Source of the DNA: Prosthecobacter debontii
GTDB taxonomy: Bacteria; Verrucomicrobiota; Verrucomicrobiia; Verrucomicrobiales; Verrucomicrobiaceae
Reading direction: 5' to 3'
DNA length: 64,000 bases
NCBI GenBank assembly: GCA_945860295.1
Contig: CAMAQH010000006.1
Coordinates: 1 to 64,000, forward strand
The notes beneath the pieces are model-generated. The model had not been told where the DNA came from, ran no database searches, and saw nothing but the letters and a program-made list of their open reading frames with translations. Below are positions 40,306 through 52,660 of the stretch, piece after piece. Position numbers and translations under genes: made by a program. Position 1 is the first letter of the stretch. Every line of letters begins with the position of its first letter.

Positions 40306-42153
40306 ATGAGCACACCTACCACGCATGACTTCCAAGCCGAGGTAAAACAGGTCTTGGACATCGTTATCCACAGCCTTTACACCGACCGCGAAATCTTCAT
40401 ACGTGAACTTGTTTCCAATGCGGCAGATGCGCTGGAAAAGATGCGCCTGACTCAGCTCACGGAGAATGATGTCTTCGGCGCGGAACTGCCGCTGAACATC
40501 ACGATCACGACGGATGAAGCCGCTGGCACGCTGACCATCGCGGATCACGGCATTGGTCTGTCCCGTGCGGAGTTGGTGGAAAATCTGGGCACCATCGCGC
40601 ACTCGGGATCGAAGGCATTTGCTGCTGCGTTGAAGAATGCGGGTAAGGGCGGTGATGCGTCCCTGATCGGGCAGTTCGGCGTCGGTTTCTACAGCGCCTT
40701 CATGGTGGCAGATGAAGTGAAAGTGTACACCCACTCCTGGCGCAATGACGGCGAGCATCTCGTTTGGTCCAGCTGCGGAGCAGGCACTTACACGATTGAT
40801 GAAGCAACGGATCAGACACGCGGTTGCCGCATCGTGATCACATTGAAAGAGGATGCGAAGGAGTTCGCACAAGCGCATCGCGTGCGCAGCATCCTTGGAA
40901 AATACTCGAACTTTGTCGGATTTCCGATCCAACTCGATGGCGAGGTGGTCAATACGGTCGAGGCGATCTGGTTGAAGAACAAAGACGAGATCACCGATGA
41001 ACAGTATAAGGCTTTTTATCAGTTCACTTCCCGTGCCTTTGATGAGCCGAGCTATCGCTTGCACTTGCAAGCAGATGCGCCGCTGGTGATAAATGCTCTG
41101 ATCTTCCTGCCTGAGCAGAACATGGAGCTCTATGGCATGGGCCAGATGGAGCCGAATGTGGGCCTGTATTGCAAGAAGGTACTGATCGACGCCCACCCGA
41201 AGAAGCTGCTGCCTGACTGGATGCGTTTCGTGCGCGGCGTGATCGACAGTGAAGATCTGCCGCTGAACATCTCCCGCGAGTCTATGCAGGACAGCGCACT
41301 GGTTCGCAAGCTGGGTGACGTGGTGACGAAGCGCCTGCTCAAGTTCATCGACAAAGAGGCTCAGGACGACGCGAAGAAGTACCAGGAGTTCTACACGAAG
41401 TACAGCCGCTTCTTCAAAGAAGGCGTGGCCACGGATCACACCAATCGTGACGCCATCGCCAAGCTGCTGCGCTTTGAATCCAGCCTCACCGACAAAGGCG
41501 AGATCGTGGGCCTTGGCGACTATGTGAAGCGCATGAAGGACGACCAGAAAGCGATCTATTATCAGGTCGCTCCGAGTCGCAGCACCATCGAGAGCGGTCC
41601 GTATGTCGAGGCCTTCAAGTCGAAGGGCTACGAGGTGCTCTATCTCTATGACAACATCGACGAATATGTGGTGAGCAGCCTGCGCGAGTTTGAAGGAAAG
41701 CCGCTCCAGTCAGTGAACTCGAATGATGTCGATCTGGGTGATGTCGCCAACGAAGGCGATGCCCTGAGCGAAGCTGACTCCATGATGCTGTGTGATTGGC
41801 TCAAGACCACTCTGGCTGAAGGCGTGGAAGAAGTCCGCAGCGGCAAGCGCCTCGTCAACAGCCCAGCTCTGGCCATCACGCCTGATGGCGAGATGACGCC
41901 GCAGATGCGCCAGATGATGAAGGCCATGAAACCTGAAGAAGTTGAAGCACCGAAGGTTATTCTCGAAATCAATCCGCGTCACGACATCGTGAAGAAGCTC
42001 GCCGCGCTTAGTTTGAGCGATGCTGACAGTGCGAAGGTCATCGCCGAGCAGATTCTCGACAACGCCCTGCTCAGCGCTGGCTTGCTTGATGATCCCCAGC
42101 GCATCGTCGCTCGCACGGAGAAGATTATGGCGCGGTTGCTCAGCAAGGAGTGA
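40306..42153 (+). CDS. htpG: Molecular chaperone HtpG (Hsp90)
   Basis: A 615-residue bacterial Hsp90. The N-terminal ATP site shows IFIRELVSNAADALEKMR (ATP-binding Asn and the Glu of the family signature), ADHGIGLSR and GQFGVGFYSAFMVAD. The middle domain carries the catalytic-loop Arg in PLNISRESMQDS, and the C-terminal dimerisation domain is complete. The length is normal. It is preceded by a good promoter and followed by a hairpin. Confidence 0.96.
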   Translation: MSTPTTHDFQAEVKQVLDIVIHSLYTDREIFIRELVSNAADALEKMRLTQLTENDVFGAELPLNITITTDEAAGTLTIADHGIGLSRAELVENLGTIAHSGSKAFAAALKNAGKGGDASLIGQFGVGFYSAFMVADEVKVYTHSWRNDGEHLVWSSCGAGTYTIDEATDQTRGCRIVITLKEDAKEFAQAHRVRSILGKYSNFVGFPIQLDGEVVNTVEAIWLKNKDEITDEQYKAFYQFTSRAFDEPSYRLHLQADAPLVINALIFLPEQNMELYGMGQMEPNVGLYCKKVLIDAHPKKLLPDWMRFVRGVIDSEDLPLNISRESMQDSALVRKLGDVVTKRLLKFIDKEAQDDAKKYQEFYTKYSRFFKEGVATDHTNRDAIAKLLRFESSLTDKGEIVGLGDYVKRMKDDQKAIYYQVAPSRSTIESGPYVEAFKSKGYEVLYLYDNIDEYVVSSLREFEGKPLQSVNSNDVDLGDVANEGDALSEADSMMLCDWLKTTLAEGVEEVRSGKRLVNSPALAITPDGEMTPQMRQMMKAMKPEEVEAPKVILEINPRHDIVKKLAALSLSDADSAKVIAEQILDNALLSAGLLDDPQRIVARTEKIMARLLSKE

Positions 42154-42171
42154 TGGAGTTCAGGAATCATA

Positions 42172-42196
42172 GGGTGACGGCTAGAGGCCGTCACTC
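42172..42196 (+). terminator. Hairpin after htpG
   Basis: GTGACGGC (42174-42181) pairs with GCCGTCAC (42187-42194) over 8 bp with loop TAGAG, extended by one G-T and one G-C pair. It stands between the convergent ends of htpG and clpS. The following bases contain few T residues, so strength is uncertain. Confidence 0.5.
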
Positions 42197-42204
42197 CTTG
42201 GTGG

Positions 42205-42567
42205 CTACTCAGCAGGCTGCATCGTTGCCTTCATCGGGCCTTGGCTTTCCTTCATGCGAGGGTCGGCGCCGTATTCGTGGATTTGCTCCACGCGCAGTTC
42301 AGCGAGTTCTTTGTGACAGGTAGCGACGATGACGCGTCCGCTTTCATCCACCTCGCAGGCCATCTTGTAGCCTTTGTCGAATTCGTAGCCAAAGATCCCC
42401 ATCAGCATTTCGATCACATACTCGTAACTGTGCGTGTCGTCGTCATGCAGGATCACATGATAGGGCGGCTCCAACTCAGGTTTGAGCTTGGGCGGTGATG
42501 GTCGCACGTCGGGGCATCCCGGCTTAACTGGGGCTTCTGTGGCATTTTGCATCAATTCGAACGTCAT
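42205..42567 (-). CDS. clpS: ATP-dependent Clp protease adaptor ClpS
   Basis: A 120-residue protein whose core reads EPPYHVILHDDDTHSYEYVIEML, the ClpS pattern that binds N-degron substrates and the ClpA/C N-domain, followed by GYEFDKGYKMACEVDESGRVIVATCHKELAE with the conserved His. The N-terminal extension is Pro-rich and flexible, as in the family. The C-terminal tail after EQIHEYGADPRM is slightly long. It converges on htpG. No clpA or clpP gene lies in the window. Confidence 0.88.
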   Translation of the reverse strand: MTFELMQNATEAPVKPGCPDVRPSPPKLKPELEPPYHVILHDDDTHSYEYVIEMLMGIFGYEFDKGYKMACEVDESGRVIVATCHKELAELRVEQIHEYGADPRMKESQGPMKATMQPAE

Positions 42568-42675: not shown

Positions 42676-43533
42676 CTAGGCTGGATCTTTCTTCGGAGCT
42701 TCACCTTCGGCCTCAGGACGCGGGCGACCGGAGCCGCCTTTGTCACCTTCACCGCTGGGTGGTCGACGGAAGCCGCCGCCTTCACCACCTTCGCCGCTAG
42801 GGCGGCGAGTTCCGCCAGGGGCACCTTGACCGCCGGGTCCACCAGGGCCGCGCATCATGTTTCTCATGCGTTCCATGCCTGATTTCATTTCTTCTTTGCT
42901 CACTTTGCCGTCTTGATTTTCATCCATGCGAGTAAAGCGTGTCTCGATCTCTTGCTTGGAGAACTCGGCATACTCTTCCTTGTCCACGTTGCCGTCGGTA
43001 TTCTTGTCCATGCGGCCATAGATCTCGTCGAGATTGAAGCCACCAGGTCCGCCTGGACCACCAGAAGGTCCACCTTGCGGGCGATCTCCTTCAGGACGTG
43101 GCTTGGGTTTTTCGTCTTCAGGCTTTGGCATCGGCTTGTCGCCTTCTTTGTTGTCGCCGGGTGGGCGTCGGAAGCCGCTTTCACCACCTTCACCGCTGGG
43201 ACGGCGTGCACCACCAGGGCCTCCCTCACCGCCAGCTCGGCCTTTCATACCCTCGCGCATCTTTTCGGCGATCTGGCTCATCTCGGTCTGGTCCACGAAG
43301 CCGTCAGCATTCACATCCATTTTGGAAAAGCGGTCGCCAGTGTCGCGCTTGGAGAATTCATCAAATTCAGCCTTGCTGATTTTACCGTCGCTGTCGGCGT
43401 CAGCGCGTTTGAGAAAGTCTGCGAGGCGACCGCCGCCGCCCTCGCCTTTAGGTGCGCCGTCTTGAGCGATAGCGATGCTGGCGCTCAGTGTGAGAAAACT
43501 GAGTGCCGTAAGGATGTTCATGGTGGGTTTCAT
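42676..43533 (-). CDS. Exported EF-hand protein with two EF-hand pairs and Gly/Pro-rich linkers
   Basis: A 285-residue protein with a signal peptide (NILTALSFLTLSASIAIAQ) and four Ca2+-binding loops: DADSDGKISKAE, DVNADGFVDQTE, DKNTDGNVDKEE and DENQDGKVSKEE. They form two similar pairs, each followed by a Gly/Pro/Arg-rich stretch with the repeated phrase RRPSGEGGE and FRRPP. The layout suggests an internal duplication of pair plus linker. Such proteins are frequent in the exported set of PVC bacteria and probably bind calcium outside the cytoplasm. A strong terminator follows. Confidence 0.88.
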   Translation of the reverse strand: MKPTMNILTALSFLTLSASIAIAQDGAPKGEGGGGRLADFLKRADADSDGKISKAEFDEFSKRDTGDRFSKMDVNADGFVDQTEMSQIAEKMREGMKGRAGGEGGPGGARRPSGEGGESGFRRPPGDNKEGDKPMPKPEDEKPKPRPEGDRPQGGPSGGPGGPGGFNLDEIYGRMDKNTDGNVDKEEYAEFSKQEIETRFTRMDENQDGKVSKEEMKSGMERMRNMMRGPGGPGGQGAPGGTRRPSGEGGEGGGFRRPPSGEGDKGGSGRPRPEAEGEAPKKDPA

Positions 43534-44031
43534 ACTTGAGGGTCGGGTTCTGATTGCGTGCCTTGAAACCAGCGTGCCGATGTTTTGTTTCGGTACGGAT
43601 GAAAATTGTGAGGAGAGGGCTATTTTCCAAGATACTGGACCTTATCCCCACTCGTGGTGATGTACATGCAGTCCTGCGCCACAGAGACGCTGTCCTAAAC
43701 GTGTGGTTTCGTTCATTCGAGACCGGTACGTTTTTCGATGTGCTCTGAAGTTGATATTCCCGACACTCCCTGAACTCGACTTTTTTATTGAGGAGCGTTG
43801 AGGGAAATGATTTCTAGAGAGTTGTCGCTAAATAAGGGTTCCGTTCACTATTTCCGTGGATTGATCCGGTCTTGAATTTTGTGATGGTCTTGAGCTTGTA
43901 AGGTATTTAATTGCCGAAGTCCGAAAGTGGTTGGTTTAATAGTTTTATTTGGGCTGATCTGGAATTAATTAAGATTTATTCGAGATCATGCAAAATTAAT
44001 GGTTTAGCTTCCACGCAGTAGTCGCTCCCGC
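43534..44031. other. AT-rich regulatory gap before the FHA-Hsp70 operon
   Basis: No gene is supported in these 498 bases. The right half (about 43790-44020) is noticeably richer in A and T than its surroundings. Several promoter-like pairs are present, for instance TTGAAT near 43872 with TTGTAA near 43896, and TTGCCG (43911) with TTTAAT after 18 bases. None stands out, but the length and composition suit the control region for the plus-strand giant gene. Confidence 0.4.
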
Positions 44032-47000
44032 ATGCCTTATCTGGCCTTTAACCTCAACAACGGAAATGAGTTCGTCTTCGACATCCTCGAAGAACGTTTG
44101 TCTATCGGCAGGGATACGAGGAACGACATCGTCATCGACAACACCTACATATCGGGTTTTCACGCCGAATTCATTCGGCATGCTGATGGTGTCTATGAAC
44201 TCTTAGACCTGAAATCTTCTAACGGAACATTTGTGAATGGGCAGCGTATCGAGCGCAGCCGGGTGAAAGGGGGGGACAAGATCCGCTTTGGTCAGCTCGA
44301 TTCGCGTTTCCGTGAGCGCGCACCTAAAGGGACGGCTCCAGCTGCTGAAATCAAATCTGGAAAAGGCAGTAAAAGCCAAGCTCCGAATGAGGATGGTCAC
44401 CCGGGTGATACCGAATCCATTCCCGCTCGTGATGCGCAGCCGAAGGATGCGGCGGGTCCGATCGAGCCGACCAACCCGCCTCTTGGCCCTAGTGATTCTG
44501 GCGGTAACTCACCGGCGACCACGAGCTTGCCGATTCGCAAGCCAGATGTTCATCCTGATTCAGTCCTACTCCAGCAGACCGAGGAACTGAGAGAGGAGAT
44601 GGCTAAGCTTAGATTGGAGCGCGATCTCCTGCGCACCGAAAATGACAAAGAGTCGGCCCTCCGCGATAAAGTGCGCGCTTTGGAAAAAACTTTGGAGCAG
44701 CGCCAACGTGAATCTGAAGAAACGACGACGAAATTGACCGAACTCAAGGCGGATGTAAGTGCTGCTCAGGCTGAGGTGGCGAAGTTGGTCACAAAGCGTC
44801 GTGAAGCAGGCAATCTCGATAGCCAGGTCGAAACCAATCGCAGTGAATTGGCGAAGGTGCAGTCTGATATCGGCATGGCGACGAGTGGCTTGCAGTCGCT
44901 GCATCGGGATGCTGATAAAGTGCGAGCGGATCGTCTAGAAGTGAGTAAGCAACTTGAAGACTTGCGTGCGCAGATTCAGCAAAGCGAGGTACGCTCGCAA
45001 GATCTCGCCAGCAAGACTCAAGAACTTGAGGTTAAGGCTCAGGAATACGCTCGACTGGTGGTTGACTCCGAGAAATCTGAGAGTGAACTGAAATCTCGTC
45101 AGAGTAGCGAGCTACAAGAAATCGAGGCGAGAATTAGCGCGCGTAAATTGGAACTGAGTCAGTTGGAAATATCTCTGACGGGTGCGCAGAAAGCGGTGCA
45201 GAGCACACAGTCTGAAGCTGAGTCGAGTGTCACCAAACTGCGCGCAGAAAAGCAATCCCTTGAGCAGCAGGTAGAAGGCTTGCAGCAGTCAATCAGCGAG
45301 GGCCAGAGCGGTCTGGGTAACCTCGAAAAACAGCGCAGCCTCCTCGGTGTGGCCCTAGCCGTATTGCTTTCCAGACGCCAATCGAGCGAGTCTGAAGTGA
45401 CTGCATTGACAGCACGCTCTGCGTCAGCACTTCAGCAATATGAGGCGACCCTTGTAGAGCAGTATAAGGCCGAAGCTTGTCTTATTGAGCTGCGTCAGCA
45501 ATTTAGCCAGACTGAGGCCGATCATGATCTTCAGAGATCGCAGGCCTGCAGTTCGATCACTGCTTTGGAGGAGTCAATCCGCAGCAAGACAGAGCAGTTC
45601 ACGCAGCTCGAAGCTCGTGAAACAGAACTTCAAAATAAGCTGTGCGACCTCTCCAAAACTGGAGCAAAGGAGGCGCAGACTAGCACGGCAGTGCAGGTGC
45701 TCGATGCACAGAAAAGTGAGTTGACAACTGTCGTCACACAACTCTCTAAGCAGCGCGATGCTCTTCAGCTCACGGTCATTTGCGCGCAAGCGAAGCAAGA
45801 GGCTGAATTGGCCGAACTCGAAAGTCGCAGGGCTGAGGTGGCGAAACTCGACACTCAGATTCCGCTGCTCGAAAGCACGATGGTCGATCTGACGGCACAG
45901 GTGCAACGACTCAAGGATGCGCATAGTATGCTTAGCGATACTGAGTCGGCGCTGATGGCTCTCGAAATTCAGAAGACTGAACTAGTCGACAGTATCGCCG
46001 AGATCAAACTTCAGCACGAAGAGTTCACGAAGCAGGCCAAGCTGTCAGAGGCCACGAAGTTGGCCAAAGAACAGGCACTCGAACAATCCATCGATGCCAA
46101 GACAAACACACTGGCTACCTTGGATTCAAAGGTGAGTCAGCTTGAGGTTAAAGAGGCTGATCTGACCAATAAGCTCAATGATCTCGCTGGTAAAAATGTG
46201 CTGCTGAGCAATGCCACGGAAGCTCTGAAGGGGGTGGAATCTCACAAAGCAGAATTGCTCTCAGCCATCACTCAAATGACGGCGGAGCGTGACATGCTGA
46301 CTCGCGACGTGCTGACTGGTGCTGAAAAGGGCAGGGCGCAGCACAAGCTAACTCAGACGCTGATCGCACGGCTTGAAGCTGTCGAAAAAGAGATGCATGC
46401 TAGCGAGGAACAGCAGGCGACGGTTTCCTTTGAATTGGGTAAGGTGCGCGAAGGTTTGCGCGTGGCTGAGTCTGCCTTTGAAACGAAGCAAAAAGACCTC
46501 AATGAGGCAGAAGCTTGCGCGGAGAGCTTGCGTAAGCAGGTGGAAGAGACCACAAAGCAACAGGCTAAACTTCAGCAGGAGGTGTCTGAGTGGAGTGCAA
46601 AACTCACCGCTGCTAAAACGGATCTTGAAGTAACAAGTGCCAATACGCAGGAGAAAGTGAAAGCGGCAGAAGAGGTTGTCGCCAGCCATGCGCAGCACAG
46701 CACTCAGTTGACTGAATTGCAGACTAAAATTAGAGGGCTGGAAGTTTTGCTGGCGACTCTTGAAGCGGCTCATTTGGAAAAAGAGACGCAGCTAAACACG
46801 CTGGAATCACAGCAGCGAGGCGCGTCCGATCTATTAACCATTAGGCAGCAAGAGATCACGGCAGAGGAAACACGGCTTTCAGAATTGCGTTCATTGACCA
46901 CGATCTTCGATCTTCGTGTGGCGGAACTTTCTGCGACTGAGAAGAAGCTCAACGAAGCCAAAGGTGCGGAGATCAAAGCAACGCAGGACATGGACAAGGC

Positions 47001-49302
47001 GCAGTCTGAAACCAAAAGGCTCCAGGATGAGCGTGCGGATCATGAAAAGCGCCTGCCAACACTGCGCGCTGAGTCGGAGATGCTACAATCAAATTTGGCG
47101 ATCAAGCTCAAGGAACTGGTGATGTCTGACGCACGCCTCACGGGTCTCAATCAGCAGGTCAAGGATCTGGATGTTCGATTGAAAGAGATGAAGGCTGCTG
47201 AGGTCGCGATGGAGAAAACCCAACTGGAAGTAACTCGCCTGACGGGTGAGCGGGACACCATCAATTTAGTCGTCGCCACTTTGCTGACTCAGCGTGAAGA
47301 TCACGAGAAAATCCTTCCAGGACTGCGCGCTGATGTGGATGTGCTGCGCACCGAATTGCGAACGCTGACTCAGGGCAAGCAAGCAACCGTCAATGCTCTG
47401 GAAAAAGTGCAGGCAGAGAGAAATTCAGTGTCTGAGCAAGCCGTCGCGCTGCGCACTGAGGTTACTCAACTGGAGAAGCTGCTGAATGATAGACGCGGCA
47501 CACTCGAAGCCGAGACTAAGACCAAGTTGGCCGAAGCCAATCAGGCGGAAACCAAATTGCACGAAGTAATTGCCAAGGTCGCGGCTGCCGAGAAACGCGC
47601 GATTGAACTCGCCGAGATCGAGAAGCGGCTTTCATCTGCGACCAGCACGCTCAAAGACACAGAGAATCAGCTTCTCGCAGAAGAGAAGGCGCTGGCCACA
47701 CTCGCTGGCCAACAAGAGAAGACGCGCAAGGACCTAGCCATGCTCGAAGAGAGTACGAAGTCCACGCAGATGCAGATTTCCGAGCTAACAAAGAAGGCTA
47801 AGGCTGAAGAGACTCGTTATGCGGATTCTGTGATGCTGGCTGAGAAGTTTGGTGCTGCCCTTCAGGCGGTGGAAGCAAAGCGTGCCGAGGCCGAGGCGGC
47901 ACTGACAAAGGCACGCGAGGAGGAGAGAAATCTCCGCAAAAACATCCCCGCACTGAATACTGAGATGGCTGGTTTGCAGGCGGCTTTGACGACGCTGACA
48001 CGAGATCGTGAAGAGGCGTCTCAATATGTTTCACGACTGAATGTCACGACGGAAGGCTCGAATCGTAAGCTGAGTGAATTGCAGCAGCAAATCTCACAAC
48101 TCGAAGAGGCGCATCGTTTGCGCGAAGAACGAGTGATCAAAGCTCAAGCAGACGTGGATAATGAAGGTGCGCGCTTGAAGGCCGCCCAGGAACAGACACG
48201 CGCTGCTGAGGTTGCTCTTCAAGATCTCGAGCGTCAGGTCAAAGAGGGTCGTCAAAAGGCTGAAGCCACCCGCACTCTAGTGACGAATCAGGAGGCTGAA
48301 CTTAGCTTGCGGTTGGATCGTGTGCAGTCGCTCAAGACGGATGAAGAGCGACTCAATAAGCAACTCGCGACTAGGCAGCAAGAAATCCAGGAGGCGGAAA
48401 CCAATGTCGCTGAGCTGCACAACAAGATTTCATCTGAGCAGAAGCGTGTCGTTGAGTTCACCCATGTGGGCGGTCAGGTGCTGACGATCGGTGCTGCGTT
48501 GGCCAGTCTGGAAACACGACAGGGTGAAACCGCTCGATCACTGCGTGATGCGGCCGAGCGTGAGTTGGCTTTGCAAGTGAAGATCAATGCACTCCAGGAA
48601 TCCTACAATCGCGAGTCTGCGCGTTTGGAGGAAGTGAAGAAGAACCGTCTCGGTATTGAGGCTGATATGGCGACCTTTGTTGACAAGTCGCAAAAGCAAA
48701 TGACGAGCCTCAAGGCTGTGGAAGGTGAGCAGCAGAAGCGACTGACCGATGTGGAAAAGCATCTTCACGAGCAGGCTACTTTGTTCGAGCGCGTGAAGTC
48801 TGAGCTGGCTGGACTGCAAGATCGACGTGCTGATTTTGCTCAAGCTGAAGCTCAATTCAGGCACTGGCAGGAGATCGAAGCTCGACTCCGCGGCCAGCTC
48901 CTGGAGCTGGAAGAGAAGCATGAAATCATGCGCCGAGGACTGCCTACGGATGAGGCCACAGTCGTCATGTTTGCGAATGATCTGATCAAGCGCATCGACC
49001 TCATTGATGCGCTCACCGCTCGCTACAGCGGCCACAGTGGTAGCGATGTTGTGACACAACTTGGCACGCTGCGCGCTTCCTTTGAGGACATTCTTTTCCA
49101 GCACGGAGTCAGTGAGTTTGATATCGCCGTTGGCACAGAGGTGGATACCCAACTTCGTAAACGCATCGCCGTCGTGGACAGTCTCCCTGGCAAAGAGAAG
49201 CCGCGTGTCGTTGAAACCTGCCGCTCCGGCTTTATGTACTCGCGTGAGGAGGGCCATGAGGTCGTCCTGCGTAAAGTAGAGGTTAGGACCTCAAGCCAAT
49301 GA
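44032..49302 (+). CDS. Giant FHA-domain coiled-coil protein with C-terminal GrpE-like domain
   Basis: The 1756-residue protein starts with an FHA domain at 1-95: SIGRDTRNDIVID (Gly 26, Arg 27), the Ser 41 and His 44 in ISGFHAEF, and SSNGTFVNG (Asn 64), all residues needed to bind phosphothreonine. A Pro/Gly/Asp-rich linker (about 96-180) is followed by some 1450 residues of almost uninterrupted heptad-type coiled coil rich in Glu, Lys, Ala, Leu and Gln. The last 96 residues (1661-1756) look like GrpE: LRASFEDILFQHGVSEFDIA, the Val-Asp of GTEVDTQL, VVETCRSGFMYSREEG and VLRKVEVR. No TM or signal peptide is seen, so it is cytoplasmic. The Hsp70 gene starts 33 bases later. The likely role is a scaffold and exchange factor for that Hsp70 (inference). 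Confidence 0.88.
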   Translation: MPYLAFNLNNGNEFVFDILEERLSIGRDTRNDIVIDNTYISGFHAEFIRHADGVYELLDLKSSNGTFVNGQRIERSRVKGGDKIRFGQLDSRFRERAPKGTAPAAEIKSGKGSKSQAPNEDGHPGDTESIPARDAQPKDAAGPIEPTNPPLGPSDSGGNSPATTSLPIRKPDVHPDSVLLQQTEELREEMAKLRLERDLLRTENDKESALRDKVRALEKTLEQRQRESEETTTKLTELKADVSAAQAEVAKLVTKRREAGNLDSQVETNRSELAKVQSDIGMATSGLQSLHRDADKVRADRLEVSKQLEDLRAQIQQSEVRSQDLASKTQELEVKAQEYARLVVDSEKSESELKSRQSSELQEIEARISARKLELSQLEISLTGAQKAVQSTQSEAESSVTKLRAEKQSLEQQVEGLQQSISEGQSGLGNLEKQRSLLGVALAVLLSRRQSSESEVTALTARSASALQQYEATLVEQYKAEACLIELRQQFSQTEADHDLQRSQACSSITALEESIRSKTEQFTQLEARETELQNKLCDLSKTGAKEAQTSTAVQVLDAQKSELTTVVTQLSKQRDALQLTVICAQAKQEAELAELESRRAEVAKLDTQIPLLESTMVDLTAQVQRLKDAHSMLSDTESALMALEIQKTELVDSIAEIKLQHEEFTKQAKLSEATKLAKEQALEQSIDAKTNTLATLDSKVSQLEVKEADLTNKLNDLAGKNVLLSNATEALKGVESHKAELLSAITQMTAERDMLTRDVLTGAEKGRAQHKLTQTLIARLEAVEKEMHASEEQQATVSFELGKVREGLRVAESAFETKQKDLNEAEACAESLRKQVEETTKQQAKLQQEVSEWSAKLTAAKTDLEVTSANTQEKVKAAEEVVASHAQHSTQLTELQTKIRGLEVLLATLEAAHLEKETQLNTLESQQRGASDLLTIRQQEITAEETRLSELRSLTTIFDLRVAELSATEKKLNEAKGAEIKATQDMDKAQSETKRLQDERADHEKRLPTLRAESEMLQSNLAIKLKELVMSDARLTGLNQQVKDLDVRLKEMKAAEVAMEKTQLEVTRLTGERDTINLVVATLLTQREDHEKILPGLRADVDVLRTELRTLTQGKQATVNALEKVQAERNSVSEQAVALRTEVTQLEKLLNDRRGTLEAETKTKLAEANQAETKLHEVIAKVAAAEKRAIELAEIEKRLSSATSTLKDTENQLLAEEKALATLAGQQEKTRKDLAMLEESTKSTQMQISELTKKAKAEETRYADSVMLAEKFGAALQAVEAKRAEAEAALTKAREEERNLRKNIPALNTEMAGLQAALTTLTRDREEASQYVSRLNVTTEGSNRKLSELQQQISQLEEAHRLREERVIKAQADVDNEGARLKAAQEQTRAAEVALQDLERQVKEGRQKAEATRTLVTNQEAELSLRLDRVQSLKTDEERLNKQLATRQQEIQEAETNVAELHNKISSEQKRVVEFTHVGGQVLTIGAALASLETRQGETARSLRDAAERELALQVKINALQESYNRESARLEEVKKNRLGIEADMATFVDKSQKQMTSLKAVEGEQQKRLTDVEKHLHEQATLFERVKSELAGLQDRRADFAQAEAQFRHWQEIEARLRGQLLELEEKHEIMRRGLPTDEATVVMFANDLIKRIDLIDALTARYSGHSGSDVVTQLGTLRASFEDILFQHGVSEFDIAVGTEVDTQLRKRIAVVDSLPGKEKPRVVETCRSGFMYSREEGHEVVLRKVEVRTSSQ

Positions 49303-49335
49303 TTTTACTCTAATCACTTTTACCCCTCTACTATT

Positions 49336-50826
49336 ATGGCTGAATATGTTGGTATTGACCTTGGAACCACGCTCTCTGGGCTGGCCTATCTGAAATCTGA
49401 TGGCAATCCTGAGATTGTCCCAAACTCTGACGGTGAGCGCCTGACTCCATCCGTCGTCTTCTTTGAGGCGCATGAAGACATTAAGTTAGTCGGTAGCGCT
49501 GCCCGTGATGGCGGAGAGCCGGACCGCACGATTTTCCAGATCAAACGTCACATGGATAACCCCGAGTATCTGGTGAAGATCGACGATAAGAACTGGACGC
49601 CTGCTGAGATCACAGCGCTGATCCTTTCCAAGCTCAAGCGCGACTGCTCCAAGATCATCGGCAACATCACTGAGGTGGTGATCACGGTGCCCGCGAATTT
49701 TAACGAGCTAGCGCGCAAGAGCACCATCGGCGCGGCAGAGATGGCAGGCATGAAGGTGAAGCGTTTGGTCAATGAGCCGACTGCTGCTGCCGTGTATTAC
49801 GCGCACAGTCAGGGCGTGCAGGGGCGCATCTTGGTTTATGATCTCGGTGGTGGCACGCTGGATGTCACGATCTTGAATGTGGAGGGTGATAATATCCGAA
49901 TCCTCACCAGCGAAGGCGCGCGTCATCTGGGTGGCAGTAACTTTGATGAGATCCTGCTGGATGCCTATGCTGAGCAGTATAGCAAGCAGACTGGAGCCAA
50001 GCTTTTCACGGATGAGCGGCACCGCCGTCGTGTGCTGCAAACCACGGAGGATGCCAAGAAGATGCTGTCCAAATTGCAGCGTGTGAATGACACGGTGGCC
50101 AATGATAAGAACGACGGCATCGCCCGTATTGACCTTTCGCGTGAGAGTTTTGAAAAGCTAATCCGCCACATGTTGACCCGCACAGTCATGCTCGTGGAGC
50201 AGGCTCTGGATTCCGCCAATCTCAAGACCAGTGAGATTGATCATGTGGTGCTAGTCGGTGGTTCGACTCGTATTCCGAAAGTGAAGACCGTGCTCGAGAA
50301 GATGTTTGGCAAGGTGCCGAAATCTTGTGGCAATGTGGATGAGTGCGTGGCTCTTGGCGCGGCACTGTTTGCTAAAAAGTCGGCGCGCATCCAGGAAGTC
50401 TGTAACGCTAGCTACGGCACGGTGGCCATGGTTTACAATGCCAAGACGGGTGAGGAGAAGCTGATGAACTCCGTCGTTATTCCAAAGAACACGCCAATCC
50501 CGTGCTCACGCACGCAGGTGTATCAGACCAGCGAGGATAATGAGCGAGTGATCGAAGTGGACGTCACGCAGGGAGAGGATGAAGACGCAAAGTTTGTGGA
50601 CATTATCGGTCGCATCACGCTTGAGGTGCCTGCGAACCGCCCGAAAGGCTGCGAGATTGCTGTCACTTTTAGTTATGATGAAAACCAGCGCGTGCGTGCT
50701 CTTGTCTTAGATAAGCAATCAGGTCGCAGCCGTGAGGTCGCTGTAAGTTACAAGGGCGCAGGCGTACTTTCTGATGAAGATCTAAAGCGTAAAAGCGCAC
50801 ATCTCAGGACCATGCGGATCGAGTAA
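49336..50826 (+). CDS. Hsp70-family ATPase lacking the C-terminal lid
   Basis: A 496-residue DnaK relative. The nucleotide-binding domain (1-350) is complete: YVGIDLGTT, the catalytic Lys 70 in FQIKRHM, ITVPANFNELAR, VYDLGGGTLDVT (168-178) and VVLVGGSTRIPKV (304-316). The linker that in DnaK is a hydrophobic DLLLLD reads IQEVCNASYGTV. A beta-type substrate domain follows (about 357-478, NSVVIPKNTPIPCSRT, DIIGRITLEVPANRPKG, AVTFSYDENQRVRALVL), and the chain ends soon after, with no alpha-helical lid. It is therefore a specialised Hsp70 and not the housekeeping DnaK. It probably works with the GrpE-like domain of the preceding gene. Confidence 0.9.
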   Translation: MAEYVGIDLGTTLSGLAYLKSDGNPEIVPNSDGERLTPSVVFFEAHEDIKLVGSAARDGGEPDRTIFQIKRHMDNPEYLVKIDDKNWTPAEITALILSKLKRDCSKIIGNITEVVITVPANFNELARKSTIGAAEMAGMKVKRLVNEPTAAAVYYAHSQGVQGRILVYDLGGGTLDVTILNVEGDNIRILTSEGARHLGGSNFDEILLDAYAEQYSKQTGAKLFTDERHRRRVLQTTEDAKKMLSKLQRVNDTVANDKNDGIARIDLSRESFEKLIRHMLTRTVMLVEQALDSANLKTSEIDHVVLVGGSTRIPKVKTVLEKMFGKVPKSCGNVDECVALGAALFAKKSARIQEVCNASYGTVAMVYNAKTGEEKLMNSVVIPKNTPIPCSRTQVYQTSEDNERVIEVDVTQGEDEDAKFVDIIGRITLEVPANRPKGCEIAVTFSYDENQRVRALVLDKQSGRSREVAVSYKGAGVLSDEDLKRKSAHLRTMRIE

Positions 50827-50873
50827 GCGGATGAAAAATATTCCTGAATCACCAACTCTAATCATCGATTTCT

Positions 50874-51212
50874 ATGTTTAAAAAAATCCTTCAATCCTTG
50901 TCTAGATCTCAGAGCGCGAAGGCAGAGGTCCCAAAGTTCCTTAACCCAGTTGCTGGATTCCCGGCTAAACCGTCTGGAAGCGTGCTCAATAAGATCGCCA
51001 AGCCTGTCGCTCAGGTAAAGCCGCAAACTCCTGAAGAACTGTGCGAGGTCACGCCCAAGATGCCCAAGGATCAAATTCAAGTGCGTCTCAAGCTTTTGTA
51101 TCGTCGCTACAATCGCAGTGCCTCCAGCCTTGATTCAAAAATCCGTGCTGAGGCAGATCAGATGCTGAACGCTATCGTTCTCGTGCGTGAAAAGTACTTT
51201 GGAGAGATTTAA
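50874..51212 (+). CDS. Small basic protein, third gene of the FHA-Hsp70 cluster
   Basis: A 112-residue protein, function not recognised. It has a basic N-terminus (MFKKILQSLSRSQSAKAEVP), a Pro/Val/Ala-rich middle and a helical C-terminal half (QIQVRLKLLYRRYNRSASSL then KIRAEADQMLNAIVLVREKY). The two predicted helices with an LYRRY motif faintly recall helices II and III of a J-domain, but the HPD motif is absent, so this is only a thought. It starts 47 bases after the Hsp70 stop and is followed by a strong terminator, making it the end of the unit. Confidence 0.75.
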   Translation: MFKKILQSLSRSQSAKAEVPKFLNPVAGFPAKPSGSVLNKIAKPVAQVKPQTPEELCEVTPKMPKDQIQVRLKLLYRRYNRSASSLDSKIRAEADQMLNAIVLVREKYFGEI

Positions 51213-51265
51213 GTCAGAGTGGTAATTTTCAAGACGCTCCTGATCGGGGCTCCTGTTTGATCAAC

Positions 51266-51302
51266 AAAAAGGCGGTGTGGTTTCAAGCCACACCGCCTTT
51301 TA
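51266..51302. terminator. Bidirectional terminator between convergent genes
   Basis: AAAAAGGCGGTGTGG and CCACACCGCCTTTTT flank a 7-base loop; the GC-rich stem is 10 bp (51271-51280 with 51288-51297) with A5 before and T5 after. It can stop transcription of the FHA-Hsp70 cluster from the left and of the DUF1501 gene from the right. Confidence 0.92.
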
Positions 51303-51325
51303 ATTTCTGATTACTCTATCGCGGA

Positions 51326-52660
51326 TTAGGCGATCAGTTCGGTCATGACGCGACCGCCATTGACGATGTCGATAGGGCGGACGCCATCCACCATGATACG
51401 TTTATCACCATTGATTCCGAGAAGTCGATACATGGTCTTGGCAAGATCCTGTGGGCTGACAGCATCGCGGTCTGGCTCACCACCCAGAGCGTCTGAGGCA
51501 CCATGGATGTAGCCTTCCTTCATGCCGCCGCCAGCCATGGCAACTGAGAAGACGCGTGGCCAGTGATCGCGACCATTGGTGGCGTTGATCTTTGGCGTGC
51601 GACCAAACTCAGAGCTAACCATGACGAGTGTCCTTTTGAGCATGCCACGATCAGCTAGATCGGTGATGAGGCGGGCAAAGGCCTGATCAAAGTTTGGGGC
51701 TTGGCCATCAAAGGCACTCTTGATATTGCTGTGGTGATCCCATCCGCCGTAGTTGACGGACACCATGCGCACACCAGCTTCTACAAGGCGACGAGCCAGT
51801 AAGAAACGCTGTCCAGCTGTGTTACGACCGTATTCATCACGGAGTTTGTCGGACTCTTTGCTCAGATCAAAAGCCTCACGTGCTTGCGTGCTGCTGATTA
51901 GTCCATAAGCAGCTTGGTAGAAGCTGTCCATGGCGGTGATGGAGTCAGCTTTTTCAACCGTGCGGAAGTGCTCGTCCACTGTGCTTAGGAGGCTGCGACG
52001 ACGATCAAAACGCTTCTCGTCGATGTCTTTTGGTGTGAGAAGGTCACGCACTGAGAAGTTTTTATCCGCAGGATCACTACCGAGAGCAAAGGGACCAAAA
52101 GCGCTGCTCATGTAACCCGTGCCTTGGTCTGGCGCGACCATGTTTGGCACGACCACATAAGGCGGCAGATTGTTTCGTGAGCCCTGCTCGTGAGAGATCA
52201 TGGAGCCGAAGCTCGGGAACTTGAGTGCAGGGCTTGGGCGATAGCCCGTGAACATGTTGTGCGTGCCGCGTTCATGAGCGGCCTCACCGTGAGTCATGCT
52301 GCGTATCACCGTCAGCTTGTTCATGATCTTGGCGATTTTTTTGAACTGCTCACCCACATACTCTCCAGGGATGGATGTCTTGATTGGCGTGTAGGGGCCG
52401 CGATAGTCGGGGCTGGCGAAGGGTTTTGGATCCCAGGACTCGTGCTGAGCCATGCCACCTGGCAGGTAGATGTGAATGATCGAATCAGCAATTGGCTTGA
52501 AGGACTCCACCTCAGGAATGACGGCGGCTGCTTGCAGGCGCATCATTTCAGGCAGCGTGAGTCCGAGACCACCGAGCATCCCAACGTAGAGGAAGTCGCG
52601 ACGGCTGACGCCTGTGCGGAGATCAATGTGGTTGCCTTGGCAATTGGGGTGCATTTTCAT
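51326..52660 (-). CDS. DUF1501 family exported protein
   Basis: A 444-residue protein of the DUF1501 family, which has an alkaline-phosphatase/sulfatase-like fold and is abundant in planctomycetes and verrucomicrobia. The N-terminus has a Tat-type signal (VSRRDFLYVGMLGGLGLTLP). Typical family phrases follow: DSIIHIYLPGGMAQHESWDP, HGEAAHERGTHNMFTGYRPS, VSVNYGGWDHHSNI, VMVSSEFGRTPKIN, GRDHWPRVFSVAMAGGG. Usually paired with a DUF1549/DUF1553 cytochrome protein; no such partner is adjacent here. Function is unknown. Confidence 0.92.
   Translation of the reverse strand: MKMHPNCQGNHIDLRTGVSRRDFLYVGMLGGLGLTLPEMMRLQAAAVIPEVESFKPIADSIIHIYLPGGMAQHESWDPKPFASPDYRGPYTPIKTSIPGEYVGEQFKKIAKIMNKLTVIRSMTHGEAAHERGTHNMFTGYRPSPALKFPSFGSMISHEQGSRNNLPPYVVVPNMVAPDQGTGYMSSAFGPFALGSDPADKNFSVRDLLTPKDIDEKRFDRRRSLLSTVDEHFRTVEKADSITAMDSFYQAAYGLISSTQAREAFDLSKESDKLRDEYGRNTAGQRFLLARRLVEAGVRMVSVNYGGWDHHSNIKSAFDGQAPNFDQAFARLITDLADRGMLKRTLVMVSSEFGRTPKINATNGRDHWPRVFSVAMAGGGMKEGYIHGASDALGGEPDRDAVSPQDLAKTMYRLLGINGDKRIMVDGVRPIDIVNGGRVMTELIA

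Follow-up and report, generated by a model that had tools for sequence, protein, structure and literature searches.

A conserved gene row in Prosthecobacter debontii joins a lidless Hsp70 to an FHA-headed GrpE-like protein and a probable J-like partner

Introduction

The closest described systems to the locus reported here are the DnaK-DnaJ-GrpE triad, the J-like mitochondrial proteins Pam16/Tim16 and Pam18, the self-binding FHA proteins, and the HSP70-GrpE theme of the GAP1-N2 GTPase systems. Our locus is a row of three genes in a stretch of 64,000 nucleotides (nt) from Prosthecobacter debontii (positions 1 to 64,000, forward strand, of contig CAMAQH010000006.1 in assembly GCA_945860295.1), which we call the window. 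The genes encode, in order, a protein with an FHA head, a long coiled coil and a GrpE-like end (protein 1), an Hsp70 without a lid, and a small protein.

In DnaK, alanine at the hydrophobic linker residues or at D393 abolishes or greatly lowers the stimulation of the ATPase by the linker (PMC8215388, partial text). D393 pairs with R167, the aspartate of the J-domain HPD tripeptide acts on this same R167, and the HPD is regarded as critical for J-domain action on Hsp70 (PMC7289447, partial text). A worm Hsc70 without its lid binds its J partner more strongly (PMC3315512, partial text). Our row resembles the DnaK-DnaJ-GrpE triad in its Hsp70 ATPase domain, its GrpE fold, its probably J-like third part and the clustering of the genes. 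It differs in that the lid, the VLLLD linker and the HPD are absent and the GrpE part is fused to a coil and an FHA domain, while the genome keeps its own dnaK, and its own grpE next to a dnaJ-type gene.

J-like proteins without HPD are known in an Hsp70 setting from Pam16/Tim16 and the trypanosomal Pam16-Pam18, and the trypanosomal Pam18 and Pam16, both J-like, act in mitochondrial DNA replication (PMC11349236, partial text). Those are mitochondrial membrane proteins that pair together, whereas our row has one small protein and no second J gene. Among FHA proteins, GarA, OdhI and DgcB bind their own tails and TIFA makes fibers; like our protein 1, they combine an FHA domain with a threonine followed by a hydrophobic +3 residue, and bacterial self-binding tails with a +3 valine exist (PMC6733907, partial text). 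In our protein the predicted motif lies behind the FHA domain and ahead of the coil and the GrpE part. A literature match for FHA with GrpE and Hsp70/DnaK in these phyla is a conflict-systems paper describing a different arrangement (Kaur 2020; PMC7159879, partial text). Its GAP1-N2 theme holds HSP70, GrpE, a DnaJ fusion and an HSP70 without a peptide-binding domain, so that HSP70, GrpE and J parts are encoded together, as in our row with its probable J part. The theme occurs mostly in actinobacteria and firmicutes, according to the same text, whereas our row has no GTPase or FNIII protein and is conserved by descent. An FHA-GrpE fusion, that is, an exchange factor with a phosphothreonine-reading head, was not found in narrow searches of open full texts, a scope outside which most subscription papers and preprints lie.

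Results and Discussion

The GrpE-like domain of protein 1

All features of the row described below lie on the forward (+) strand. Protein 1 is an open reading frame of 1756 amino acids (aa) at 44032..49302 with Pfam matches to FHA and GrpE. Its GrpE-like domain (residues 1587-1756; 48790..49299) consists of a long helix, a helical bundle and a beta wing. The Pfam GrpE match covers residues 1594-1752 with E 6.6e-6, and its 26.3 bits lie above the cut-off of 25.8, a score that could have been raised by the adjoining coil. An alignment with the genome's own GrpE showed that the glycine and the L-R of the last strands are retained. When the last 200 residues were searched directly against PDB sequences, nothing matched.

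The AlphaFold model of residues 1587-1756 (predicted local distance difference test score, pLDDT, 86) has a 48-residue helix, two further helices and a beta domain, which is the GrpE order. When this model was compared with known structures, 1dkg_A came first (Z 12.6, root mean square deviation [rmsd] 2.4 over 103 residues; the fold tool cautions that a Z below 8, or below about 13 for helical models, may reflect a common arrangement). The top six matches were all GrpE-type exchange factors, with Z 12.6 to 9.9, and the best non-GrpE match had Z 8.0. Two of the six gave an rmsd above 17 and place the long helix differently. The last domain of protein 1 is predicted to fold as GrpE, and with a Pfam score above the cut-off and a GrpE fold match it can be counted a member of that family. 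The FHA/coiled coil/GrpE-like layout given in the original prediction is borne out by the two Pfam matches, by this fold match, and by the coil period described below.

Conservation of the row

Relatives were collected with two short peptide patterns, a route that misses distant kin; from 97 relatives we kept the best 80, each of them a Verrucomicrobiota record by title, as our set of named loci. The full row, with FHA-GrpE, Hsp70 and small protein side by side, is present in 50 of these 80. In 18 of the remaining 30 the row is truncated by a contig end or has a broken frame: a contig ends ahead of or inside the row in 13 (L108, L109, L111, L117, L119, L127, L133, L142, L151, L165, L168, L179 and L183), the contig of L180 stops just behind the Hsp70, and frames are broken in L132, L152, L169 and L178. 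L164 is without the GrpE part, and eleven loci have no FHA-GrpE gene beside the Hsp70 (L130, L131, L143, L144, L145, L166, L167, L170, L182, L184 and L185), the contig of L167 also ending just behind the Hsp70. For seven of these eleven the genome carries a GrpE-like domain elsewhere (G435, G436, G437, G438, G439, G441 and G444); the FHA head is present in six, and a contig end cuts the seventh. The genome of L184 also contains the complete row L187, whereas the genomes of L166, L170 and L185 gave no FHA-GrpE gene. The original prediction hinged on the three genes being neighbors in relatives. The 50 full rows show that they are, and together with the seven genomes that hold the gene elsewhere they support a conserved Hsp70 module with an FHA-headed GrpE.

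Within the genus, the Hsp70 tail is found at 87-97% identity in 29 of 34 other genomes, one partial, and is missing from five, two of which are 93% complete (G007 and G013). Seven of 21 genomes from other families of the order have it at 55-61% identity. In a search of 387 phylum genomes, the window's included, the same 7 hold the GrpE-like domain (E <= 1e-8), the Hsp70 tail (E <= 1e-70) and the small protein (E <= 1e-25), the last two limits having been chosen after the results were seen. In one of them, G115, the GrpE gene sits on a different contig from the Hsp70 and the small protein. The row is kept over at least three families of one order. One genome, G445 (L184, L187, L233 and L234), carries the Hsp70 twice and encodes three GrpE-like proteins, among them that of L233 (390 aa), which has no FHA match.

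In a census of neighbors at 78 loci, wide sharing was confined to the three genes of the row. The clusters that rank next extend to 19 loci, and the representatives scanned from six of them are housekeeping, sugar or unknown proteins. A divergent gene with a lipoprotein look and no Pfam match occurs at 19 loci.

These results bear on the idea that the row is a conflict or defense module akin to the GAP1-N2 theme, which is very improbable. The parts shared with that theme (PMC7159879, partial text) speak for it, and in a single case (L229:2-1744) the tail-to-tail neighbor of a detached FHA-coil-GrpE gene encodes a Roc-COR GTPase (COR-A E 1.9e-32). However, no GTPase is present in the six scanned neighbor clusters, and the Hsp70 is kept throughout most of the genus at the high identity given above. 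PADLOC matches were confined to the coil, and we set the defense system aside. A phage or plasmid origin was rejected as well, since no relative was found in viral contigs or, in a search with the last 150 Hsp70 residues at E 1e-12, in plasmids, which also speaks against a conflict module.

The lidless Hsp70

The second gene (49336..50826) encodes an Hsp70 of 496 aa with its ATPase residues retained. The PF00012 match (E 6.3e-103) reaches only to position 509 of the 599 in the profile, which shows that the lid is absent, as had been predicted. K70, E147 and T174, which we take to be ATPase or catalytic positions by their roles in DnaK, are invariant in 12 relatives. The protein has the ATPase domain and the beta substrate domain of the Hsp70 family and is without the helical lid and the VLLLD linker of a canonical DnaK.

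Alignment with the genome's own DnaK places VCNAS (residues 355-359; 50398..50412) where DnaK has the interdomain linker VLLLD. Across 12 module rows the linker reads V[CA]N-x-[SG] in place of VLLLD (VCN-x-[SG], with VAN-x-G in L042), and the position of DnaK D393 is S or G. The position of DnaK R167 is G, as read by eye, in the distant Hsp70s of G224 and G307, which are described below.

The small protein

The third open reading frame (50874..51212) encodes 112 aa. Alignments show that its N-terminal half is variable and that the C-terminal domain, residues 50-112, is conserved. Pfam and NCBIfam gave nothing above cut-off, and a PDB profile search returned one phycobilisome-type chain at E 0.1, which we took as chance. 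A relationship to GrpE was tried and rejected, since there was no match to the GrpE profile.

Structure prediction pointed to a J-like domain without HPD at residues 50-112 (51021..51209). The model has long helices at residues 65-83 and 88-109, where pLDDT blocks reach 91-94. Among the 50 PDB fold matches listed, 17 are J-domain or J-like by title, with 6rzy at the top (Z 6.6) and 2guz_B, a chain of the Tim14-Tim16 complex that is presumably Tim16, at Z 5.1. The DnaK-bound J-domain 5nro_B aligns its residues 3..63 with residues 50..112 of the small protein. Profile comparison by hhalign gives the same register as this fold alignment. Against 16 J-domains from these genomes, the probability was 7% with 17 sequences, 26% with more members and 44% with two distant rows added. 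The score with the distant rows, 23.62, exceeds the maximum of 16.79 in 300 column shuffles (0/300) and of 18.19 in 220 windows from up to 21 real families (0/220); without them it is 21.65, against a maximum of 18.52 in shuffles.

Both the sequence and the structure register place N80-R81-S82 (51111..51119) on the HPD of DnaJ, H33-P34-D35. The HPD is absent throughout the family. Its H place is N in 90 of 90 sequences and its D place is A, S, G, T or L in 90 of 90; at the P place, letters were available for 88 of the 90 sequences, and none is P. N80, R78, L72, S85, L86 and L98 are invariant in all 90, many of which are near relatives. We conclude that the small protein is probably J-like, with an origin that is supported and unproven, and we do not term it a J-domain. 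The third gene of the original prediction is present as described, and its probably J-like residues 50-112 went unrecognized in that "small basic protein."

Alternatively, the row may combine an Hsp70 and a GrpE-type exchange factor with an unrelated helical adaptor. The small protein would then be a docking factor or a client, and the cell's usual DnaJ would serve the Hsp70. The hhalign probability below 50% and a top fold Z of 6.6, within the chance range for helical hairpins, would both fit. Two clear DnaJ-type proteins of the genome, along with two weaker matches, could do the work, and the Hsp70 retains R143, the partner of the HPD. However, it is hard to see why in an unrelated adaptor the sequence and structure registers should agree, or why no shuffle or decoy window should match the J score. 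J-like kin form the end of a TerB protein, and the start of a class-wide third gene gives an end-to-end, though low-probability, alignment with J-domains (see below). On balance we rate the adaptor as rather unlikely.

The coiled coil and the FHA head

The coiled coil spans residues about 191-1560 (44602..48711). Residues 191-1560 (1370 residues) contain 4 prolines and have a hydrophobic period peaking at 3.49-3.50, with 26 of 26 windows peaking inside 3.35-3.70. Protein 1 is between 574 and 2388 aa long in 51 named loci, and in L041 it is 294 aa, hardly beyond the FHA and GrpE parts. The coil thus ranges from nearly absent to about 2000 residues, and the Hsp70 and the small protein vary little. 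Because protein 1 runs from 294 to 2388 aa, the coil is not essential; it is a spacer and not the core of the system. GrpE dimerizes via its long N-terminal helices, and a coil leading into GrpE would therefore be a natural extension of the GrpE stalk.

This variation matters for the suggestion that the scaffold came first, with the coil dimer as a tether or strut tied by FHA to a phosphorylated structure and the Hsp70 as a passenger that turns the strut over. Coils reaching about 2000 residues suit such a role, and an unbroken dimer of 1370 residues would be about 0.2 micrometer long, judging by the rise per residue of a coiled coil. However, coil length is free, down to the 294-aa FHA-GrpE of L041, with little change in the Hsp70 and the small protein, and we consider the scaffold quite unlikely to be the primary function. 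The same range rules out a molecular ruler of fixed coil length. The long coil named in the original prediction is borne out by its 4 prolines and its period of 3.5; the range of lengths speaks against a ruler or filament of fixed size.

The FHA domain occupies residues 24-87 (44101..44292; Pfam E 7.6e-19). FHA domains recognize phosphothreonine, and often the +3 residue too. Among 67 heads, a set that leaves out FHA rows of <=85 bits or <=290 aa, R27, S41, H44, N64 and T66, which we take to be the phosphothreonine-binding positions, are the same residue in 66, 66, 67, 65 and 63, respectively. Behind the domain lies the linker motif GDTESIP (residues 125-131; 44404..44424), in which T127-x-x-I130 fits an FHA ligand. 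The pattern T-x-x-[IVL]-[PASG], which was defined only after the linkers had been viewed, occurs within residues 99-165 in 59 of 67 proteins against 17.9 expected by shuffling (TESIP, 127-131, in the window), and in 13 of 18 diverse representatives against 4.46 expected. By this post hoc pattern, protein 1 carries its own threonine with a hydrophobic +3 residue near the FHA domain, as do self-binding FHA proteins of the GarA/OdhI/DgcB type. A phospho-switch through FHA self-binding is a fair guess from the sequence and not a result. The original prediction had FHA tethering the system to a phosphorylated target. Retention of the phosphothreonine-binding residues (63-67 of 67) agrees with phosphothreonine binding, yet the ligand may instead, or besides, be the protein's own linker threonine.

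Two further observations concern FHA genes. A second, short FHA gene (214-279 aa) lies upstream of the module at 12 loci (L116, L118, L120-L122, L125, L128, L132, L134-L136 and L158). In a single case (L232:1-2718), a detached FHA-coil-GrpE gene and a protein kinase gene (Pkinase E 4.6e-20) face each other tail to tail.

A proposed mechanism

The J-Hsp70-GrpE triad is probably complete in this row, with all three parts altered. That the genes encode a dedicated Hsp70 machine, with a GrpE that resets it, a J-like part without HPD and an FHA domain that binds phosphothreonine, seems to us an evenly poised proposition. In such a machine, the GrpE-like domain at the end of the coil would prolong the GrpE dimer stalk and carry the FHA head, and it would hold the lidless Hsp70 and reset it by nucleotide exchange. 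The small protein would be a J-like partner that has lost the HPD tripeptide. Because the small protein has no HPD and the Hsp70 no VLLLD linker, J-triggered ATP hydrolysis may have given way to a contact that is weaker, regulated or serves for recruitment alone. The FHA head would bind a phosphothreonine, either in a partner protein or in the T-x-x-[IVL] of the linker behind it (in cis or across to a neighboring dimer), and a kinase would thereby switch tethering or head-to-head assembly. We infer the complex, the exchange activity, the phospho-switch and the clients from the parts described above.

Going by the titles of references, lidless DnaK reportedly binds GrpE more strongly and exchanges peptide faster. 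By analogy with the lidless worm Hsc70, which binds its J partner more strongly (PMC3315512, partial text), the lidless Hsp70, the GrpE dimer and the J-like protein may form a standing complex and not a classical folding machine. A bolder version is possible but doubtful. Here the Hsp70 cycle would run without HPD, with the J-to-linker trigger dropped on both sides, and would be switched by phosphorylation via self-assembly of the GrpE rods through FHA.

Several points weigh against a dedicated machine of this kind. For the GrpE part, the Z of 12.6 falls just below the helical caution mark of 13. Pfam GrpE is weak in relatives, below the cut-off in L153 (25.2 bits) and L041 (19.9 bits) and without a match in L187, and the related FHA-coil proteins L036 and L164 have no GrpE end. 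A search of four Hsp70-bearing genomes (G440, G442, G443 and G446) found no GrpE-like domain. For the J-like part, the call is not significant by hhalign probability, which stays at 7 to 44%; ribosomal chains stand among the J-domain fold matches at Z 4.8 to 6.2, together with other hairpins, so that the Z may be chance; and Pfam DnaJ did not match any of 17 small-protein members. DnaK R167, the target of the HPD, is retained as R143, a point against J input having been lost completely. For the switch, the linker pattern was written post hoc, 8 of 67 proteins are without the motif, and its position is not clearly aligned in several diverse representatives. No kinase or client gene was part of the row in the 78-locus census with its six scanned clusters.

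Under the bolder version, the related rows would point to rewired Hsp70 machines as a broader class within Verrucomicrobiota. The row, with its probable J-like protein, offers a natural test of the need for HPD, linker and lid, and it would provide a nucleotide exchange factor with a phosphothreonine-reading head.

Related rows in other Verrucomicrobiota

Weaker Hsp70-tail and small-protein matches in the 387-genome search pointed to distant rows in G224 and G307. G307 belongs to another class; its row begins with a GrpE-like gene, continues with two short Hsp70s in tandem and then has a TerB protein (E 4.6e-12) whose J-like end matches the small protein. The row of G224 consists of a GrpE-like gene, one short Hsp70 and a 326-aa protein that has this J-like end too. 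GrpE is the best Pfam match of the first genes of G307 and G224, below the cut-off (E 5.5e-4 and 0.01). In a tree, which omits L005 (partial) and L207 and in which L204 and L210, labeled canonical DnaK, are long and oddly composed, the Hsp70s of G224 and G307 group with the module (95/95) and separate from DnaK.

A search of the class found a related Hsp70 tail (E <= 1e-19) in 31 of 335 genomes, and 12 of the loci were examined, with profiles built partly from the counted loci themselves. In 10 of the 12 (L265-L272, L274 and L275) the gene after a short Hsp70 ends in an FGE-sulfatase domain, and in 7 of these 10 a GrpE gene directly precedes the Hsp70. Pfam found FGE-sulfatase in 10 of 10 third genes and GrpE above the cut-off in 6 of 6 scanned first genes of the seven. 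The start of the third gene aligns end to end with J-domains and has no HPD; the probability is 10-12%, and 0 of 200 shuffles reach the score. Its common origin with our small protein is not shown, since direct comparison gave no similarity. These rows, which come from other orders of the class, share the part order and a short Hsp70 (520-544 aa) with our row. They differ in a GrpE above the Pfam cut-off, in having no FHA found, in the FGE-sulfatase of the third gene, and in an Hsp70 clade of their own (100/100). The set of GrpE, short Hsp70 and J-like third gene recurs with different extras; FHA and the coil are those of the branch to which our row belongs.

Other arrangements were seen as well. 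L189:4004-9176 and L188:8267-11559 have a GrpE-like gene followed by one (L188) or two (L189) short Hsp70s and then by a protein with a hydrophobic start, judged by eye, and a J-like end, with TerB in L189; this layout presumably resembles that of DjlA. At L276:3599-6762 and L273:2490-5544, a 568-aa Hsp70 stands beside a J-domain protein that by eye has RPD for HPD (Pfam DnaJ E 7e-4 in L276). At L213:2153-4930, a short Hsp70 precedes a protein with a J-looking start without HPD, again by eye, a weak zinc-ribbon match and DUF4190.

Genomic setting

The three open reading frames lie on one strand with gaps of 33 and 47 nt, and an intrinsic terminator of 16 pairs follows at 51267..51301, in agreement with the predicted row and its closing terminator. 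The stem is the longest among 13 terminator-like sites in 43500-52000, where shuffles of both strands gave 8.6 expected. Sigma-70-like promoters in the same interval numbered 0 against 4.6 expected.

The host genome comprises 4.68 Mb in 75 contigs. Elsewhere it encodes a DnaK on C3, a second Hsp70 of full length on C2 and a canonical GrpE adjoining a DnaJ-type protein on C20, and C40 holds a short Hsp70 match. Because the genome holds these DnaK, Hsp70, GrpE and DnaJ-type proteins, the three-gene module is an extra system. Upstream of it lie an Hsp90 gene (window 40306-42567; HSP90 E 1.7e-111) and a ClpS gene (E 6.1e-18), neither of which is a conserved neighbor, and a glycine-rich EF-hand protein (EF-hand_5 E 2e-18) is encoded on the opposite strand at window 42676-43533.

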